DNA of 64,000 bases from Chryseobacterium ginsenosidimutans (lineage in GTDB: Bacteria > Bacteroidota > Bacteroidia > Flavobacteriales > Weeksellaceae), in assembly GCF_030823405.1 (NCBI RefSeq), contig NZ_JAUSXC010000001.1:1037001-1101000 (forward strand), read 5' to 3'. The notes below the pieces were generated by a model. It was not told the origin of the DNA and made no database searches. It was given only the letters and a program-made list of their open reading frames with translations. The position numbers and the translations under genes are program-made. Below, in pieces: positions 6,127 through 55,656 of this stretch; position 1 is the stretch's first letter, and every line of letters starts with the position of its first letter.

Positions 6127-7074
6127 TTATAATTTGAATATTTTCTTTGTAAAACTCCTGACAGTATATTTATCAATAATGTCTTGAGAAATTTCTACAT
6201 AATCTAATTCCAGAAATTTTTTAATTCCATCCGGATTTAAATGATCACTATTGATGACCAACATATTGTTCGGATGATAAAAATCGTAATTTTTTACCTC
6301 AATATTGGTTGTTATTAATTTTTTTCGATAGCCTAAGCTTTCGAAAGTCCTGAAAGACAATCCTTTCTGGTCTTTTCTTTGAATGTCTATCATTGCTTTT
6401 GACTGAGAAATCAATTTCTTCGTTTCTTTAAGAGAAAGATATTCTGTAGTCGAAATTAAATGCGGATACACCAATTTTTCAAACCAAAATAATACGAAAT
6501 ATATTTTGAAATCCGCTTCAGACAATTCAGTTGAAACTCTGTTGATTTCATCAATCCTGGAATCATAAGATGAAACGTTGAAAATGTCATATTTTAGGTC
6601 TTCAGTTTCTAATTTTTCATCATAAATAAAATTAGAGGTTTCAATAAAATGATATTTTTCTATATCTTCTTTCTCGTAAGAATAGATTTCGTCAAAGAAA
6701 TGAGCTATTTCGAGCTGTTTTGGATATTTTTTACAGCTGTCGTAAAAATAAGCAATAAAAGTTTTTGTATTTTGTTTTAATTCCTTTAATAAAGAATCAT
6801 CCAGCATATCGGGTCTGATCACAAAAATAATATCTTGTTTTTCTGTGATTTGCTGTAAAATTTGTTTACTGAAATATTTTTTTTTGATGTTGTTTCCAAA
6901 TAATTTTGTGATTCCGTTCCATATTTTCACAAAAATATTTGGGTAAGTATATTTTATTAGATCAGTTTTAATATTTATTACTTCAATATTTTCATTAGAC
7001 TGAAGCTCCTCAACGACAAAATCAATATAACCGTACGCAAAAGGATAAATTAATGTAATTTTCTTTGACGTCAT
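6127..7074 (-). CDS. Glycosyltransferase-like protein, paralogue of the gene at 8099
   Basis: 315 residues with no membrane segment. The C-terminal part holds GLSFRTFESLGYRKKLIT followed by NYDFYHPNNML; almost the same pattern occurs in the protein at 8099-9079, so the two are diverged copies. The arrangement resembles the donor-binding half of GT-B proteins (a CgeB/family 1-like group). It overlaps the upstream gene by four bases (ATGA), which suggests coupled translation. Enzymatic activity is inferred from context and fold pattern only. Confidence 0.5.
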   Translation of the reverse strand: MTSKKITLIYPFAYGYIDFVVEELQSNENIEVINIKTDLIKYTYPNIFVKIWNGITKLFGNNIKKKYFSKQILQQITEKQDIIFVIRPDMLDDSLLKELKQNTKTFIAYFYDSCKKYPKQLEIAHFFDEIYSYEKEDIEKYHFIETSNFIYDEKLETEDLKYDIFNVSSYDSRIDEINRVSTELSEADFKIYFVLFWFEKLVYPHLISTTEYLSLKETKKLISQSKAMIDIQRKDQKGLSFRTFESLGYRKKLITTNIEVKNYDFYHPNNMLVINSDHLNPDGIKKFLELDYVEISQDIIDKYTVRSFTKKIFKL

Positions 7075-36751: not shown

Positions 36752-39706
36752 GTGTTTTACGATCATCAGCAGATAGAAAAAAAGTGGCAGAAATACTGGG
36801 AAGAAAACCAAACGTATAAAACTTCCGATAACACAGACAAACCGAAATTTTATGTTCTCGATATGTTTCCATATCCATCCGGAGCAGGGCTTCACGTAGG
36901 TCATCCTCTGGGATATATTGCATCAGATATTTATGCGAGATATAAAAGACATCAGGGTTTCAATGTTCTCCATCCCGTTGGTTATGACAGTTTCGGGCTT
37001 CCTGCTGAGCAGTATGCAATTCAGACAGGGCAACATCCTGCAATTACAACTGAGCAAAACATTACGAGATATGAAGAGCAATTAAGAAAAATAGGTTTTT
37101 CATTTGACTGGAGCAGAGAAGTTAGAACTTCTGACGCTTCTTATTATAAATGGACACAATGGATTTTTATTGAATTGTTCCATTCCTGGTATAATAAAGA
37201 TACAGACAAGGCAGAATCGATCTCAACTTTGATTAAACATTTTGAAGAAAAAGGAACAGCAGATTTAAATGCCAATCAAAACGAAGAATTAAATTTCACT
37301 GCAGAAGAATGGAAAGAAGCTTCTGAAATTGATAAAGAAGATATTTTATTAAATTATCGTTTGGCGTACAGAGCTGAAACGACTGTCAACTGGTGTCCTG
37401 CTTTAGGAACAGTATTGGCAAATGATGAAGTAAAAGACGGAAAATCCGAAAGAGGAGGTTTTCCTGTTTACCAAAAGAAAATGATGCAGTGGAGCATGAG
37501 AATTTCTGCATATTCCGAAAGATTGTTGCAAGGTCTTAAAACATTAGACTGGCCGCAACCGTTGAAAGATTCTCAGGAATACTGGATCGGAAAATCTCAG
37601 GGAGCGCAGGTGCAATTTACTGTTGAAGGTCATGATGAGATTGTTGAGGTTTTTACCACAAGACCTGATACTATTTTTGGAGCAACATTTATGGTGTTGG
37701 CGCCGGAAAATCCTTTAGTGGAAACAATTACTACAGCAGAACAAAAAGCTGAGGTAGAAAATTATATTGAAGAAACTTCCAAGAAAACCGAAAGAGACAG
37801 AATGTCTGACGTGAAAAATGTTTCAGGTGCTTTCACAGGGACTTACGCGATCAATCCTTTCAGTAATGAAAGAATGCCGATTTATATTTCAGATTATGTG
37901 TTGATGGGTTACGGAACAGGAGCTGTAATGGCTGTTCCGGCACATGATGAGCGTGATCACAGATTTGCAAAGAAATTTAATTTAGAAATTAAAAAAGTTG
38001 TAGAAACTGATGAAGATGTTCAGGAAAAGTCTTTTGATTCTAAAGATTCTGTTTGTGTAAACTCTGATTTCTTAAACGGATTAAATTATAATGATGCAAA
38101 GGCATTAATTATAGATGCTATCGAGAAAAAAAGAATCGGTCACGGAACGACGAACTACAGACAGCGTGATGCGATTTTCTCAAGACAAAGATATTGGGGC
38201 GAGCCGATTCCTATTTATTATAAAGACGGAATGCCGTACACGTTGCCAACTTCTGCATTGCCTTTGGAACTTCCTGAAGTTGAAAAATATTTGCCAACAG
38301 AAGACGGAGATCCACCATTAGGAAATTCAAAAACTTTTGCTTGGGATGAAGCTAATCAAAAAGTGGTTGCCACAGATTTAATTGATGATAAAACTGTATT
38401 TCCGTTAGAATTATCTACAATGCCGGGTTGGGCAGGAAGCTCATGGTATTTCCTGAGATATATGGATCCAAATAATGGTGAGGTTTTTGCTAATAAAAAA
38501 ATGTCGGATTATTGGGGACAGGTAGATTTATATATTGGAGGTAGCGAGCACGCAACCGGTCATTTATTGTATTCCCGTTTCTGGAATATGTTTTTAAAAG
38601 ACAGAGGATATATTAATAATGATGAACCTTTCCAGAAATTGATCAATCAGGGGATGATTTTGGGGATGAGTGCTTTTGTTCATTTTGTTTTTTTCTCTTT
38701 AATTGAAAAAGAAAGCAAAAATGTAATTATTGATAGAAAAATAATTCTAATCTCTAAAAGTTCATACATAAAAGCATTGTCTGGGGATAATAATGAACTA
38801 ATAGATATTTCTAAAAATTACCTTACTGCAGAACAAAATAATGATCTTAATGAAGGTAAGTTTATTTTAATAACCCCAATTCAAAAAGTTCCTGTAGATA
38901 TATCTTTATTAAAAGGAACATCTGATGAATTAGACACGGAAGCCTTCAAAGCTTGGAGGCCAGATTATGCAGATGCAGAATTTATTTTGGAAGACGGAAA
39001 ATATATCACAGATCGTGAAGTAGAAAAAATGTCCAAATCAAAATACAATGTAGTAAATCCTGATGACATCTGTGAAGAATACGGAGCAGACGGATTGAGA
39101 TTGTATGAAATGTTTTTAGGTCCGTTAGAACAATCCAAGCCATGGAATACGCAAGGATTAAGTGGAGTTTACGGTTTCTTGAAAAAATTCTGGAACCTGT
39201 ATTTTAATGAAGGCGTTTTTGAAGTTTCTGATGAAGAACCGACAAAAGCTGAATATAAAGTGTTGCATACATTAATAAAAAAGGTAGTTTATGATATCGA
39301 AAACTTCTCTTTTAATACATCTGTATCGTCATTTATGATTGCTGTAAATGAATTACAAAAAATAAAATGTAATAAACGCAATATTTTAGAACCATTAGCC
39401 GTTATTATTTCCCCTTATGCTCCACACATCTGCGAAGAGCTTTGGAGCTTATTAGGAAACAAGGAGTCTGTCGAATTTGAGAAATTCCCTGTATTGAATG
39501 AAGACTATCTTGTGGAGGACGAAATTCAATATCCGGTAAGTGTAAATGGTAAAATGAAGTTTAAAATTTCACTCTCTGCTCAGTTTTCTGCCAAAGAAGT
39601 GGAAGATGTAGTGCTTCAGGATGAAAAAATGCAGCAGATTTTGGAAGGTAAAACACCAAAAAAAATCATTGTAGTGCATCACAGAATTGTGAATATAGTA
39701 ATTTAA
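36752..39706 (+). CDS. leuS: Leucine--tRNA ligase
   Basis: 984 residues, long for the family. It starts with GTG at 36752 (MFYDHQQIEKKWQKYW); no ATG is available until residue 38. The HIGH motif is HVGHPLGYIASD near residue 48, the editing domain occupies about 250-420, the KMSKS loop (EKMSKSKYNV) is near residue 761, and the C-terminal anticodon domain has ISPYAPHICEELW. A long AT-rich insertion lies between GMSAFVHFV and FKAWRPDYA (about residues 640-730). TATTTTTG at 36667-36674 may be the -7 box. Confidence 0.95.
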   Translation: MFYDHQQIEKKWQKYWEENQTYKTSDNTDKPKFYVLDMFPYPSGAGLHVGHPLGYIASDIYARYKRHQGFNVLHPVGYDSFGLPAEQYAIQTGQHPAITTEQNITRYEEQLRKIGFSFDWSREVRTSDASYYKWTQWIFIELFHSWYNKDTDKAESISTLIKHFEEKGTADLNANQNEELNFTAEEWKEASEIDKEDILLNYRLAYRAETTVNWCPALGTVLANDEVKDGKSERGGFPVYQKKMMQWSMRISAYSERLLQGLKTLDWPQPLKDSQEYWIGKSQGAQVQFTVEGHDEIVEVFTTRPDTIFGATFMVLAPENPLVETITTAEQKAEVENYIEETSKKTERDRMSDVKNVSGAFTGTYAINPFSNERMPIYISDYVLMGYGTGAVMAVPAHDERDHRFAKKFNLEIKKVVETDEDVQEKSFDSKDSVCVNSDFLNGLNYNDAKALIIDAIEKKRIGHGTTNYRQRDAIFSRQRYWGEPIPIYYKDGMPYTLPTSALPLELPEVEKYLPTEDGDPPLGNSKTFAWDEANQKVVATDLIDDKTVFPLELSTMPGWAGSSWYFLRYMDPNNGEVFANKKMSDYWGQVDLYIGGSEHATGHLLYSRFWNMFLKDRGYINNDEPFQKLINQGMILGMSAFVHFVFFSLIEKESKNVIIDRKIILISKSSYIKALSGDNNELIDISKNYLTAEQNNDLNEGKFILITPIQKVPVDISLLKGTSDELDTEAFKAWRPDYADAEFILEDGKYITDREVEKMSKSKYNVVNPDDICEEYGADGLRLYEMFLGPLEQSKPWNTQGLSGVYGFLKKFWNLYFNEGVFEVSDEEPTKAEYKVLHTLIKKVVYDIENFSFNTSVSSFMIAVNELQKIKCNKRNILEPLAVIISPYAPHICEELWSLLGNKESVEFEKFPVLNEDYLVEDEIQYPVSVNGKMKFKISLSAQFSAKEVEDVVLQDEKMQQILEGKTPKKIIVVHHRIVNIVI

Positions 39707-39866
39707 AAAAAAATTAACATTGGCAAATTTAAAAAAATGCGGGCTTAATTTTTGTAAATTTTTAACGTAATTGTTAAAATTAAGGAATATTGCCAAAAAA
39801 AGAGAATATAATTATAATATCGAAATCGTATTAAAATTTCTTTGTCGAAAAAAACCGAAATGTTTA

Positions 39867-52334: not shown

Positions 52335-54191
52335 CTATTCGAAATTCTGCAACAATTCCAACGCCTTCATCATATCGATTCCTTTTCCTAGAACGGGTTT
52401 AAACAAATCTCCTTTTTCTTTAATCCTCTCCAACGTATTATGAATGTTAAAATCAGTTGGTTTTAAGCCAGGTTTCAATTCATCCCATTCCAAAGGCATA
52501 GAAATAGAAGCACCTTCTTTTGGCCTTAAACTGTAAGCACTTGCCAATGTTTGTCCGGTTCTGTTTTGAAGATAATCAAGATAGATTTTCTTCTCATCCC
52601 TTTTCTGTAAACTTCTTTCTAACGTTGTGATTTTGGGAAGCTTTTTATTGACCTGTTTCATTAAAATATGTGCAAAATCTTTGACTTGGTCAAAATCATA
52701 TTTCCCACCCATCGGAATGTAAACATGAATTCCTGTACTTCCGGAAGTCTTGCAATAGCCTTTAATTTTAATTGATTCCAATACTTCATTCACTTGTAGG
52801 GCAGTTTCAATCACATCATCAAATGTATTTTTCTTCGAAGGATCGAGATCTAAAACCATAAAATCCGGATGTTCTAAATCAGGCAATGCACTGTTCCACG
52901 GATTCATATCAATACAACCCAAATTATTTAAATAAGCCAGAGTTGCCTTATCGTTACAGTAAATATAATCGATGTATTTATCGTTTGATTCGGAGTAAAC
53001 CTGTGTCGTTTTTATCCAGTCAGGAATATTATCACTTGCATCTTTCTGATAGAAGTTTTGTTCTTCAATTCCGTTTGGAAAACGGTTTAATGATAAAGGG
53101 CGATTTTTTAAATGAGGAAGAATATAATCCGCAACAGACTGGTAATATTCGATCACATCGCCTTTTGTTACTTCGTCTTTCGGAAAATAAATTTTATCCT
53201 GATTGGTTAATTTTAGTTTATGCCTGTTCAGAGTAATTTCTTGATCTTTTTCAGAAATTTCAATTTTCTTTGATGGAGTTTTAGCTTTCATTTCTTTAGG
53301 TTTTTCGTTGATTTCTTCGGGGTTTTTATCTTCTCGGATTGCCACAAAAACAGGATGCCGGAAAATTCCGTCTTCTGTAATTTCGGAATATTTTATCTCA
53401 CAAACCAGTTCGGGTTTTATCCAGGTTACAGGCATATTTGTTTTAGGTTTATCTTCAAAAGGAGAACTTTTTACAACTAATTTTAATAGCCGTTGATGAA
53501 GTAAATCCAACGATTCTTTATTAAAACCTGTTCCTGTATGTCCGGAATAAATCAATTTGCCATCAATGTATTTTCCTAAAATAAGTGCTCCGAAACCTTT
53601 TCTCGAACCTCTTGGTTTTGTAAATCCACAGATTATCGCTTCTTCAGTATTGGTGAATTTTATTTTCAGCCAATCCGAACTTCTGCTGTTTTCAATGTAT
53701 AAGCTGTCGGCTTTTTTTGCGATCATCCCTTCCAGTTCCATTTTTTTCATTTGATTGAAAAAATCAATGCCTTTTTCCGGAATATGGTCACAGTATTTAA
53801 TAACATCTGTTTCAATTAAGGCTTCTTTTAAAAGCTCTTTTCGTTGAATTAAAGGAATTTCTTCTGTAGAATGACCATTGAGCCACAACAGATCAAAAAC
53901 CTGATAAGCTAAGGCTAAATTTGGATTATCTCCAATTTGCTGTAACAATTGGAAGCTGGGTTTTCCGTTTTCGTCATATGCTACAATTTCCCCATCAAGA
54001 ATCATTTTATGCTTCTGATTCTCAAAATCTTTTGAAACTTTATCAAATTTTGACAGAAAAGAAATCCCATTTCGAGAGTAGAAGAGTGGTTCGTCGTTGC
54101 TGAGATCTGCAATAGCGCGGTAACCGTCCCATTTTATTTCGAAAATCCAGTCTTTATCATCAAATGCATCTTCAGTTAATTTTGCCAGCAT
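52335..54191 (-). CDS. ligD: DNA ligase D, ligase and polymerase domains (downstream part of a split ligD)
   Basis: 618 residues from ATG 54191, but the same frame stays open further upstream to the A9 run at 54298-54306. The ligase domain holds EIKWDGYRAIADL with the AMP-accepting lysine near residue 24, and later EGMIAKKADSLY and the oligonucleotide-binding fold. The C-terminal polymerase/primase domain shows LSLNRFPNGIEEQNFYQKD, VLDLDPSKKNTF with catalytic Asp residues, and SGSTGIHVYIPMGG. It repairs double-strand breaks with Ku. With the phosphoesterase part it would form an 845-residue protein. Confidence 0.9.
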   Translation of the reverse strand: MLAKLTEDAFDDKDWIFEIKWDGYRAIADLSNDEPLFYSRNGISFLSKFDKVSKDFENQKHKMILDGEIVAYDENGKPSFQLLQQIGDNPNLALAYQVFDLLWLNGHSTEEIPLIQRKELLKEALIETDVIKYCDHIPEKGIDFFNQMKKMELEGMIAKKADSLYIENSRSSDWLKIKFTNTEEAIICGFTKPRGSRKGFGALILGKYIDGKLIYSGHTGTGFNKESLDLLHQRLLKLVVKSSPFEDKPKTNMPVTWIKPELVCEIKYSEITEDGIFRHPVFVAIREDKNPEEINEKPKEMKAKTPSKKIEISEKDQEITLNRHKLKLTNQDKIYFPKDEVTKGDVIEYYQSVADYILPHLKNRPLSLNRFPNGIEEQNFYQKDASDNIPDWIKTTQVYSESNDKYIDYIYCNDKATLAYLNNLGCIDMNPWNSALPDLEHPDFMVLDLDPSKKNTFDDVIETALQVNEVLESIKIKGYCKTSGSTGIHVYIPMGGKYDFDQVKDFAHILMKQVNKKLPKITTLERSLQKRDEKKIYLDYLQNRTGQTLASAYSLRPKEGASISMPLEWDELKPGLKPTDFNIHNTLERIKEKGDLFKPVLGKGIDMMKALELLQNFE

Positions 54192-54274
54192 GGGTTTGAT
54201 GAAATTTTCTAATTTTTTTTCATCAACTAAAGAATTAAATCTTTGAAATCTTGGCTTTGTTTCTGGTGTTGTAA

Positions 54275-54871
54275 CTACTTTTTGCTGTTTTTTAGGCTTT
54301 TTTTTTCCTCTAAAAATTGTGTTACCAAAGATTTTGGAGAAATATTTTCTTCGGCATCATAATTTTCTTCAGCAAATTCATCTTTATGTTTAATTAAAAG
54401 CCATGCATTGTTTTCTGCATTTTTCATTTTAACTAGCGCAAATTCGCCTTTCAGTTTTTTTCCGTGAAGAATAAATTTTAATGAACCCGCTTTTAATTCT
54501 TTCAACAGTTCTTTTTCGTCGGAAAGCTTACTTGTATCATCCAAAGGTTCATAAGTCCCACTGTCCCAGACTTCGACTTGTCCCGCTCCATAATTTCCTT
54601 CGGGAATATTTCCTTCAAAATCTTTGTAATCATAAGGATGATCTTCAACTTCCATCGCCAGACGTTTGTCTTTGGGATCTAAAGACGGACCTTTTGGAAC
54701 TGCCCAGCTTTTCAGAACACCTTCCATTTCTAACCTGAAATCATAATGAAGTCGTGATGCAGCATGCCTTTGAATCACAAAAATAAGTTTGTCTTTGCTC
54801 TTTTTTGTTTTTCCTTCGGGTTCGCTCGTTTCGTCGAATTTCCGTTTTTCGTTGTAATCTTTTAGAGCCAT
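54275..54871 (-). CDS. ligD: DNA ligase D, 3'-phosphoesterase domain (upstream part of a split ligD)
   Basis: 198 residues. The phosphoesterase domain is complete: FVIQRHAASRLHYDFRLEM with catalytic His and Asp, then WAVPKGPSLDPKDKRLAMEVEDHPYDY, broken here as WAVPKGPSLDPKD and MEVEDHPYDYKDFEG. After residue 191 the frame shifts at an A9 run and stops seven codons later (TAG at 54275-54277). It starts with ATG 54871, overlapping the Ku stop by one base. It trims 3' ends before ligation. See the finding on the split. Confidence 0.9.
   Translation of the reverse strand: MALKDYNEKRKFDETSEPEGKTKKSKDKLIFVIQRHAASRLHYDFRLEMEGVLKSWAVPKGPSLDPKDKRLAMEVEDHPYDYKDFEGNIPEGNYGAGQVEVWDSGTYEPLDDTSKLSDEKELLKELKAGSLKFILHGKKLKGEFALVKMKNAENNAWLLIKHKDEFAEENYDAEENISPKSLVTQFLEEKKSLKNSKK
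54298..54306 (-). other. A9 homopolymer at the junction of the ligD frames
   Basis: Nine T residues on + (nine A on the coding strand) following GAGG. A one-base gain here, or a -1 slip on the A AAA AAA heptamer, joins the two ligD frames. Confidence 0.85.
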
Positions 54872-55656
54872 TATGATGCGTTTTTAGATTTTGGACTTTG
54901 TAAACTGGCTTTTAACTGTGCCATGAGATCAATCACTTTACCTTCTCTGGCAGGCGCAGCTTTTTTGGCTTTCACCGTCTTACCTTTTGCTTTTCTCTTA
55001 ATGATTTTGAGCAGTTCTTCGGAATAGTTATCTTCATACATTTCAGGATCAAACTCTTGTGAAAGCTGTTCGATAAGGCTTACTGCCATCTTTAATTCGG
55101 CTGGTTTCGGAGCTTTTTTTGCAGGAATTTTTAAATCTTTATAATCTCTTATTTCCTGAGCAAAACGCAATCGGTTTAAAACCAAAACCTCATCATTATA
55201 AGGCCGAATCATTCCGATTGCCTCACTTTCACGGAGAACAAAAGTACCGACACCGACCATTTTTGTTTGAGATAAAGCCTTTAATAGAAGTCTGTAAGCA
55301 TTTTCCCCGTTCTTTTGAGGTTCAAGAAAATAGGGGTTTTCGAAGTAAACGCTGTCAACTTCAATTTCTTTTACAAACTGATCGATAGAAAGTATTTTAC
55401 TCTTTTCAGGGCTTGCAGCTTCGTAATCTTCATCTTCAAGAATAATGTACTGATCGTCCATGAGATAACCTTTTACAATGTTTTCCCATTTTACTTCTTT
55501 GCCTGTTTTTTCGTTGACTCTTTTGAATTTAATATTGGAAAAATCAGATTTATCAAGCATGTCCAAATCCAATTTGCTGGTTTCTACAGCCGAATAAATT
55601 TTTACAGGAATATTGACTAATCCAAAGCCAATGGCACCGTTCCAGATTGCTTTCAT
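54871..55656 (-). CDS. ku: DNA end-binding protein Ku
   Basis: 261 residues. It opens MKAIWNGAIGFGLVNIPVKIY, broken as MKAIWNGAIGFG and LVNIPVKIYSAVET, which is the invariant start of bacterial Ku. The middle has YIILEDEDYEAASPEKSK and SVYFENPYFLEP; the end is a basic tail. Ku dimers encircle DNA ends and recruit LigD. It is the first gene of a two-gene unit with ligD, sharing a one-base overlap. Paired palindromes lie upstream at 55704-55733. Confidence 0.95.
   Translation of the reverse strand: MKAIWNGAIGFGLVNIPVKIYSAVETSKLDLDMLDKSDFSNIKFKRVNEKTGKEVKWENIVKGYLMDDQYIILEDEDYEAASPEKSKILSIDQFVKEIEVDSVYFENPYFLEPQKNGENAYRLLLKALSQTKMVGVGTFVLRESEAIGMIRPYNDEVLVLNRLRFAQEIRDYKDLKIPAKKAPKPAELKMAVSLIEQLSQEFDPEMYEDNYSEELLKIIKRKAKGKTVKAKKAAPAREGKVIDLMAQLKASLQSPKSKNAS

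Follow-up and report, generated by a model that had tools for sequence, protein, structure and literature searches.

The end-joining gene ligD of Chryseobacterium ginsenosidimutans is divided between two reading frames that meet at a run of nine A residues (A9). It lies in a 64,000-nucleotide stretch (hereafter the window; contig NZ_JAUSXC010000001.1, positions 1,037,001 to 1,101,000) that is part of a 4.3-Mb single-contig genome. We propose, with a probability of roughly 0.6, that Chryseobacterium ligD is programmed to give two products through slippage of RNA polymerase on the A-run. Sequence comparisons across the genus show that the 3'-phosphoesterase (PE) and ligase-polymerase frames form a single coding unit, and they make it near certain that the boundary between the frames gets crossed. 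The uncertain step is to attribute most of the crossing to the polymerase and not to the ribosome.

A ligD gene divided between two frames

The locus in the window consists of the following parts.

54275..54871, minus strand: PE frame of ligD, 198 aa (LigD_N PF13298, residues 34-148)
54295..54310, minus strand: GAGG-A9-GCC, the candidate recoding element (the A-run itself at 54298-54306)
54275..54298, minus strand: zero-frame tail SLKNSKK and stop, closing the short PE form (last codons AAA AAG TAG)
54192..54299, minus strand: linker in the ligase (-1) frame, 36 codons starting KPKKQQ, without ATG, GTG or TTG
52335..54191, minus strand: ligase and primase-polymerase, 618 codons, -1 frame (PF01068, PF04679, PF21686; TIGR02776 above cut-off)
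54871..55656, minus strand: ku, the Ku end-binding protein (PF02735; TIGR02772 above cut-off)

The original prediction, made from the letters of the window, had described two separate frames (PE at 54871-54275; ligase-polymerase from 54191), nine A's at 54306-54298 with GAGG before them, and a -1 frame open to the ligase start. These features were all recovered on the minus strand, with GCC after the run, and the open stretch measures 36 codons with KPKKQQ counted within them. The predicted 845-residue PE-Lig-Pol product likewise agrees with arithmetic on the coordinates, by which the whole -1 reading of ligD has 845 codons.

The PE frame terminates 8 codons beyond the A-run. Sequences of solved PE domains align inside residues 3-185 of this frame, so the frame boundary falls just past the folded domain, and the short PE form is, by this alignment, a complete domain. 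The full domain set of LigD (PE, ligase and primase-polymerase) is present in the window, spread over the two frames, and the second open reading frame (ORF), encoding ligase-polymerase, matches NHEJ_ligase_prk above cut-off. In keeping with the absence of start codons from the linker, 54191 is given as the first ligase start in the ORF listing of the window. The ku gene, the partner of LigD in bacterial non-homologous end joining (NHEJ), lies directly upstream of ligD in the window, and its stop overlaps the ligD start.

Conservation of the split arrangement

The divided gene is found genus-wide. A PE match was present in 124 of 148 Chryseobacterium genomes, and the open frame was about 204 aa in nearly all of them, not 850. 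The exact 16-mer GAGGAAAAAAAAAGCC (GAGG-A9-GCC) was found in 119 of 173 Chryseobacterium genomes, as a single copy in 117 and as a double copy in 2, both of which have two ligD copies. The reversed control pattern gave one match over all 173 genomes. In all 108 of the 119 genomes in which the locus was read (110 places), the 16-mer was located between the PE and ligase motifs. In the protein collection, all 120 short forms among the matches listed were at least 89% identical to the window PE, and the database product names for Chryseobacterium are lone 3'-phosphoesterase or N-terminal domain protein. The 28 named loci whose PE shares at least 84% identity with that of the window all carry the label Chryseobacterium.

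We then classified 201 distinct loci from the family, at one genome per species (202 rows, the window locus being entered twice as L001/L002). Five loci with no usable PE-ligase pair (L129, L130, L132, L182 and L224) were excluded before this tally. Of 156 split loci, 154 have the ligase in the -1 frame, each with A9 or A10 in the shift window. A further 45 loci were fused, one was split with the ligase in another frame (G272), and one contained stops (G062, a 75%-complete assembly). The -1-frame split accounted for 126 of 135 loci in Chryseobacterium (g1), 19 of 21 in Epilithonimonas (g9), 5 of 33 in Kaistella (g26), 3 of 5 in g5 and the single locus of g23 (1/1), and for 0 of 6 in five further genera. 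Some members of g9 and g26 are labelled Chryseobacterium sp.

Epilithonimonas and a second Chryseobacterium ligD type carry the site at another linker position, where AGT, GGT or once AAT precedes A10. At this alternative position 25 loci are split, and 4 are fused with A11. On the tree, the second ligD type of some Chryseobacterium (L120-L127) clusters with Epilithonimonas (L161-L181), a grouping that suggests transfer or an old paralog. Five loci (L131, L133, L139, L146 and L152) form a clade of LigD paralogs apart from the rest; they are fused, mostly at about 900 aa where the frame is whole.

Outside the family, 31 named loci were compared; the genus, family and order genome sets overlap mutually and with these 31. 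Eight are split at a run of at least 8 (six in the -1 frame, two in the other), and in 8 of 8 the open frame from the run reaches the ligase motif. Eighteen are fused, four have PE without a ligase motif, and one is split without a run. After the A-run, the ligase is in the other frame in L326 (Paenimyroides, A12), L329 (Niabella, A8) and, from the family set, L136/L231 (G272, A8); these may be broken alleles or products of slippage of another size. In a gammaproteobacterial record, that of Candidatus Methylobacter favarea (L359), ligD is split at A9 and the PE is 61% like the Chryseobacterium PE, which may reflect transfer or contamination. Four Flavobacteriaceae loci (L233, L234, L240 and L256; g35) have a PE gene with no ligase motif in the downstream stretch examined.

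Coding selection in the linker

We analysed the sequence between the A-run and the ligase Met in 118 rows collected by a type-1 pattern (117 distinct loci). L020, L035 and L077, with GTC after the run, escaped this pattern and stand outside the 118. No row (0/118) had a stop in the ligase frame, and all 118 had stops in each other frame. The ratio of nonsynonymous to synonymous change (dN/dS) in the linker was 0.131 in the ligase frame versus 1.22 and 1.06 in the other two frames; outside the linker it was 0.040 in PE and 0.041 in the ligase. These are rough values from a counting method, with synonymous sites near saturation. In the zero frame, tails of 7-11 codons were the most frequent among the 25 commonest listed for the type-1 set.

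In 92 of the 118 rows the region from the last stop up to the ligase Met contains no ATG, GTG or TTG. The linker dN/dS in these start-less rows was 0.144, with the first two codons omitted. An independently started ligase would not keep the codons ahead of its start under selection, barring an unusual start codon. The purifying selection in start-less rows therefore indicates that the ligase is read as a continuation of the PE frame. Conserved second-frame coding past the run, a trait of programmed slippage genes, is present here.

Nucleotide-level selection at the junction

Synonymous changes were counted on the tree for 160 near-invariant codon columns of the 117 type-1 Chryseobacterium loci. 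The columns GAG GAA AAA AAA had 0 synonymous changes and were the sole zero columns among the 160, for which the median was 23 (9 in Glu/Lys columns). The Glu before the run was encoded by GAG in 115 of 115 loci, although GAG accounts for just 15% of Glu codons in the ligase-encoding part of these genes. Two loci have Gln or Lys replacing that Glu, and their codon still ends in G. The next ligase-frame codon was AAG in 115 of 117 loci (background 15%), with two changes on the tree. Protein constraint alone is insufficient for these codon choices. The pattern shows nucleotide-level selection on the GAGG-A9-GCC junction.

These conserved junction nucleotides, the genus-wide arrangement and the coding selection in the linker give good support to the explanation by programmed -1 frameshifting or transcription slippage offered in the original prediction, in which both free PE and full LigD would be made by one or the other of the two machines.

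Long A-runs are rare in this genome

The window contains 3 A9 runs, whereas its dinucleotide shuffles average 39.2. Across 464 kb sampled from the genome, mechanically chosen ORFs contained 5 runs of A9 or longer (A9+), the ligD run included, where about 48.5 were expected from synonymous shuffling, an approximately 10-fold depletion. In the Lig-Pol part of the studied loci, 4 such runs were seen versus 27.7 expected, which makes them about 7 times rarer. Avoidance of A9+ has been interpreted by Baranov et al. as escape from slippage at nine (PMC1088944). A homopolymer of at least nine where such runs are otherwise avoided, also a trait of slippage genes, is present in ligD.

Elsewhere in the window, a second A9 is in frame at 6877-6885 (minus strand), within an ORF at 6127-7074 (315 aa, no Pfam match at E 0.001), and a third lies at 39705-39713 (plus strand). 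The plasmid collection gave no match, and an Rfam scan of the window found only a tRNA.

RNA polymerase slippage and ribosomal frameshifting as candidate mechanisms

In the mechanism that we favour, RNA polymerase would slip at the A-run, and a fraction of ligD transcripts would gain one A. The default product would be free PE of about 200 residues, and a smaller share would be full PE-Lig-Pol LigD, made from the same operon. The conserved flanking G's would fix the run at nine and may favour a pause there. Nine A's are about the length of the RNA-DNA hybrid. The flanking G's bring to mind the elemental-pause consensus, and GG-A9-G may be a pause-and-slip element; the pause signal includes the upstream fork, the hybrid and the downstream fork (PMC6336406). 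The trait common to all 154 split loci is a pure A9/A10 run in the shift window. The scarcity of A9+ elsewhere and the different linker position used by Epilithonimonas and the second ligD type also speak for the polymerase. In the eight natural fused alleles examined, a run longer or shorter by one leads to a stop within about 20 codons, and such alleles could yield both products from the other side.

Alternatively, the ribosome would shift -1 on A_AAA_AAA, on A_AAA_AAG, or on both, and full LigD would be made from unaltered mRNA. We consider this unlikely, though it deserves serious weight. Several observations speak for it and weigh against polymerase slippage. Every one of the 154 loci split in the -1 frame has A_AAA_AAA in phase within the shift window. 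This heptamer falls within the efficient E. coli -1 class V_VV.A_AA.R, and A_AAA_AAG is among the best E. coli motifs (PMC4066793). The latter heptamer is in phase in 57 of 154 loci, 56 of them among the 126 of Chryseobacterium and one among the 3 of g5. In 54 of the 57 it lies 17 nt beyond the run, immediately ahead of the PE stop, and in 1 it lies at the run end. The copy ahead of the PE stop is a candidate second slip site, and 101 of the 154 loci have AAA AAG in phase downstream of the run. Downstream stretches are somewhat more stable than shuffles, a weak and lineage-specific effect: fold stability had z < -2 in 11/40 and 8/40 cases downstream, and in 3/40 and 2/40 upstream. A small hairpin, AGAAGU-CAUA-ACUUCU, was identified by eye in the consensus at the second site of a subset of loci; the window is without it. 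The invariant third-position G of GAG is unexplained by run length, and the nucleotide-invariant GAGG resembles a Shine-Dalgarno core. The ligase position in the -1 frame in nearly all split loci also suits a ribosomal shift. Two further points burden the slippage model. In G272 the run is A8 and the ligase is in the other frame. In fused species, A9+ runs were seen in 25 of 37 loci against 17.5 expected by codon shuffling, an excess that is modest unless avoidance is allowed for. The A-runs of fused species are weakened as evidence because Lys-rich linkers and A-rich codon use already predict that 17.5 of 37.

The ribosomal explanation meets its own difficulties. In the window the second site reads C_AAA_AAG TAG, an imperfect heptamer. 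Of the 126 Chryseobacterium loci, 70 have an imperfect site or none, and neither the 19 split Epilithonimonas loci nor the 5 split Kaistella loci have one. The run heptamer requires fewer A's than are conserved. Stimulators of -1 shifts are found about 10 nt upstream of the slip site; GAGG abuts the run, and other lineages are without GAGG. No consensus RNA fold was found by RNAalifold in 60 loci, which also counts against the ribosome. Internal Shine-Dalgarno signals seem to be little used in Bacteroidota. In Flavobacterium johnsoniae, Shine-Dalgarno sequences are rarely used and the shift at prfB is poor (PMC12421855), a trait that weighs against a ribosomal mechanism. We rank the polymerase ahead of the ribosome because the columns with zero synonymous changes coincide with the run, and none falls at the second site.

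Phase variation, separate genes and error

The original prediction had also raised a phase-variable switch, in which replication slippage in the DNA toggles full LigD between cells. Run length does vary: in the main Chryseobacterium type split genes have A9 and fused genes A10, and in the second type and Epilithonimonas split genes have A10 and fused genes A11. The tree, on which support for many branches is weak, demands no fewer than 16 changes between split and fused. Replication slippage of run length does occur, rarely: genes fused by run length have A10 in 2 of 135 Chryseobacterium loci and A11 in 2 more, and number 2 of 21 in Epilithonimonas. However, the states are unbalanced, with 126 split (-1) versus 4 fused by run length in Chryseobacterium and 19 versus 2 in Epilithonimonas, and phase variation does not need the invariant GAG and AAG codons. 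A single run length and state dominate at one genome per species, whereas in phase-variable genes both states are common among isolates. We therefore hold phase variation to be improbable. The 126-row Chryseobacterium clade has 4 fused rows, 1 poor row and 1 other-frame row, the remainder being split in the -1 frame. L038 and L088 are fused with A9 kept, in frame via a shorter linker. In C. indologenes there are six short-form entries totalling 80 contigs, possibly repeated between sources, and no fused form named C. indologenes was among the 120 matches listed. At least 8 full-length forms (P0121-P0128) are at least 75% identical to a natural Chryseobacterium fused protein, one of them a joined form that NCBI labels LOW QUALITY PROTEIN; this set is without the known fused L017, L038, L088 and L110, and the fused counts are lower bounds.

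A permanently divided gene would give PE and ligase-polymerase as separate proteins, the second starting from its own Met. Genuine two-gene loci do exist in Flavobacteriaceae: in L254, L255 and L257, PE and ligase are encoded by distinct, overlapping genes. Type-1 loci do have the ligase Met. The junctions of these three two-gene loci have no A-run of 6 or more, the same ligase Met is internal in fused alleles, and the Chryseobacterium linker ahead of the Met shows purifying selection in the ligase frame even without ATG, GTG or TTG. We rejected the separate-gene model, now very improbable, on the selection in start-less loci and the contrast with true two-gene loci. Sequencing or assembly error, or a decayed gene, is the least credible explanation of all. 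Homopolymers are error-prone, and both the stops in the incomplete G062 assembly and the LOW QUALITY joined form are of the kind that error would leave. Error, plain mutation and pseudogene were nevertheless rejected, given the identical 16-mer in 119 of 173 genomes and the dN/dS of about 0.04 in PE and ligase. The original prediction had entertained error or plain mutation, which would be indicated by an intact A10 gene in all relatives; the opposite was found, with in-frame A10 in only 2 of 135 Chryseobacterium loci.

A possible recurrent switch in Bacteroidota

More tentatively, the loci as a whole can be read as a recurrent slippage switch at the PE-ligase linker of LigD in Bacteroidota, a broader proposal that we regard as somewhat doubtful. 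The A-tract would be kept in the linker despite genome-wide avoidance, having arisen at different linker places in different lineages, and its phase would flip between default-split and default-fused. Chryseobacterium would have fixed a GG-A9-G element with a run length matching the RNA-DNA hybrid, and in many species the ribosomal slip site before the PE stop would serve as a back-up. The slipping machinery itself would then set the ratio of free PE to LigD, and so of cleaning to sealing of broken ends.

Relation to known systems

Programmed recoding at an A-run is a known kind of event, and ligD would be a new case of it. One close parallel is Citrobacter rodentium tssM1, in which transcriptional slippage occurs at A11 and both forms and their ratio matter (PMC4256274). 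Like ligD, tssM1 is a chromosomal gene with a stop just past the A-run, and slippage restores the full-length protein. It differs in being a secretion gene with A11, whereas ligD is a genus-wide DNA-repair gene with A9 between conserved G's and slippage is predicted. Thermus thermophilus dnaX shares a nine-A run in a DNA-metabolism gene and yields two products, one long and one short, through slippage of RNA polymerase (PMC1088944, PMC5009743). In dnaX the unslipped message gives the long form, whereas most ligD loci would give the short form; the fused A10/A11 ligD alleles resemble the Thermus arrangement. In Shigella mxiE and spa13 the longer product requires slippage (PMC1088944, PMC5009743), but these genes belong to secretion systems and their regulation, unlike ligD.

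Conventional fused LigD has the same PE, ligase and polymerase domains and a ku neighbour, and the Chryseobacterium coding differs in being divided at the PE-ligase linker (PMC8656161, PMC7719229). The word 'frameshift' is absent from the main texts of these two articles. 'LigD' is absent from the main text of PMC3711429 and from the first 300,000 characters of PMC5009743. Among the articles listed in searches of an open-access collection, none describes this recoding of ligD.

Among ribosomal systems, E. coli dnaX uses -1 frameshifting with a Shine-Dalgarno-like element about 10 nt upstream and a downstream stem. It shares with ligD an A-rich heptamer, a -1 shift and two products, the A_AAA_AAG of 56 of the 126 Chryseobacterium loci included; in ligD, by contrast, GAGG abuts the run and there is no consensus stem. 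To our knowledge, no recoding at an A-run in ligD was known before.

Implications for end joining

In NHEJ, PE prepares 3' ends, the polymerase fills and the ligase seals (PMC8656161, PMC7719229). A default short product would mean an excess of free PE over LigD, and the conservation of the arrangement suggests that the PE:LigD ratio matters. The natural alleles, from A8 to A12, split or fused and with or without the second heptamer, make a series that would separate polymerase from ribosome. If our interpretation is true, this bacterial DNA-repair gene contains a recoding site that is invariant in its nucleotides and conserved very widely. End joining would then be tunable through two products of one frame-shifted gene, and the free phosphoesterase would have a job of its own.

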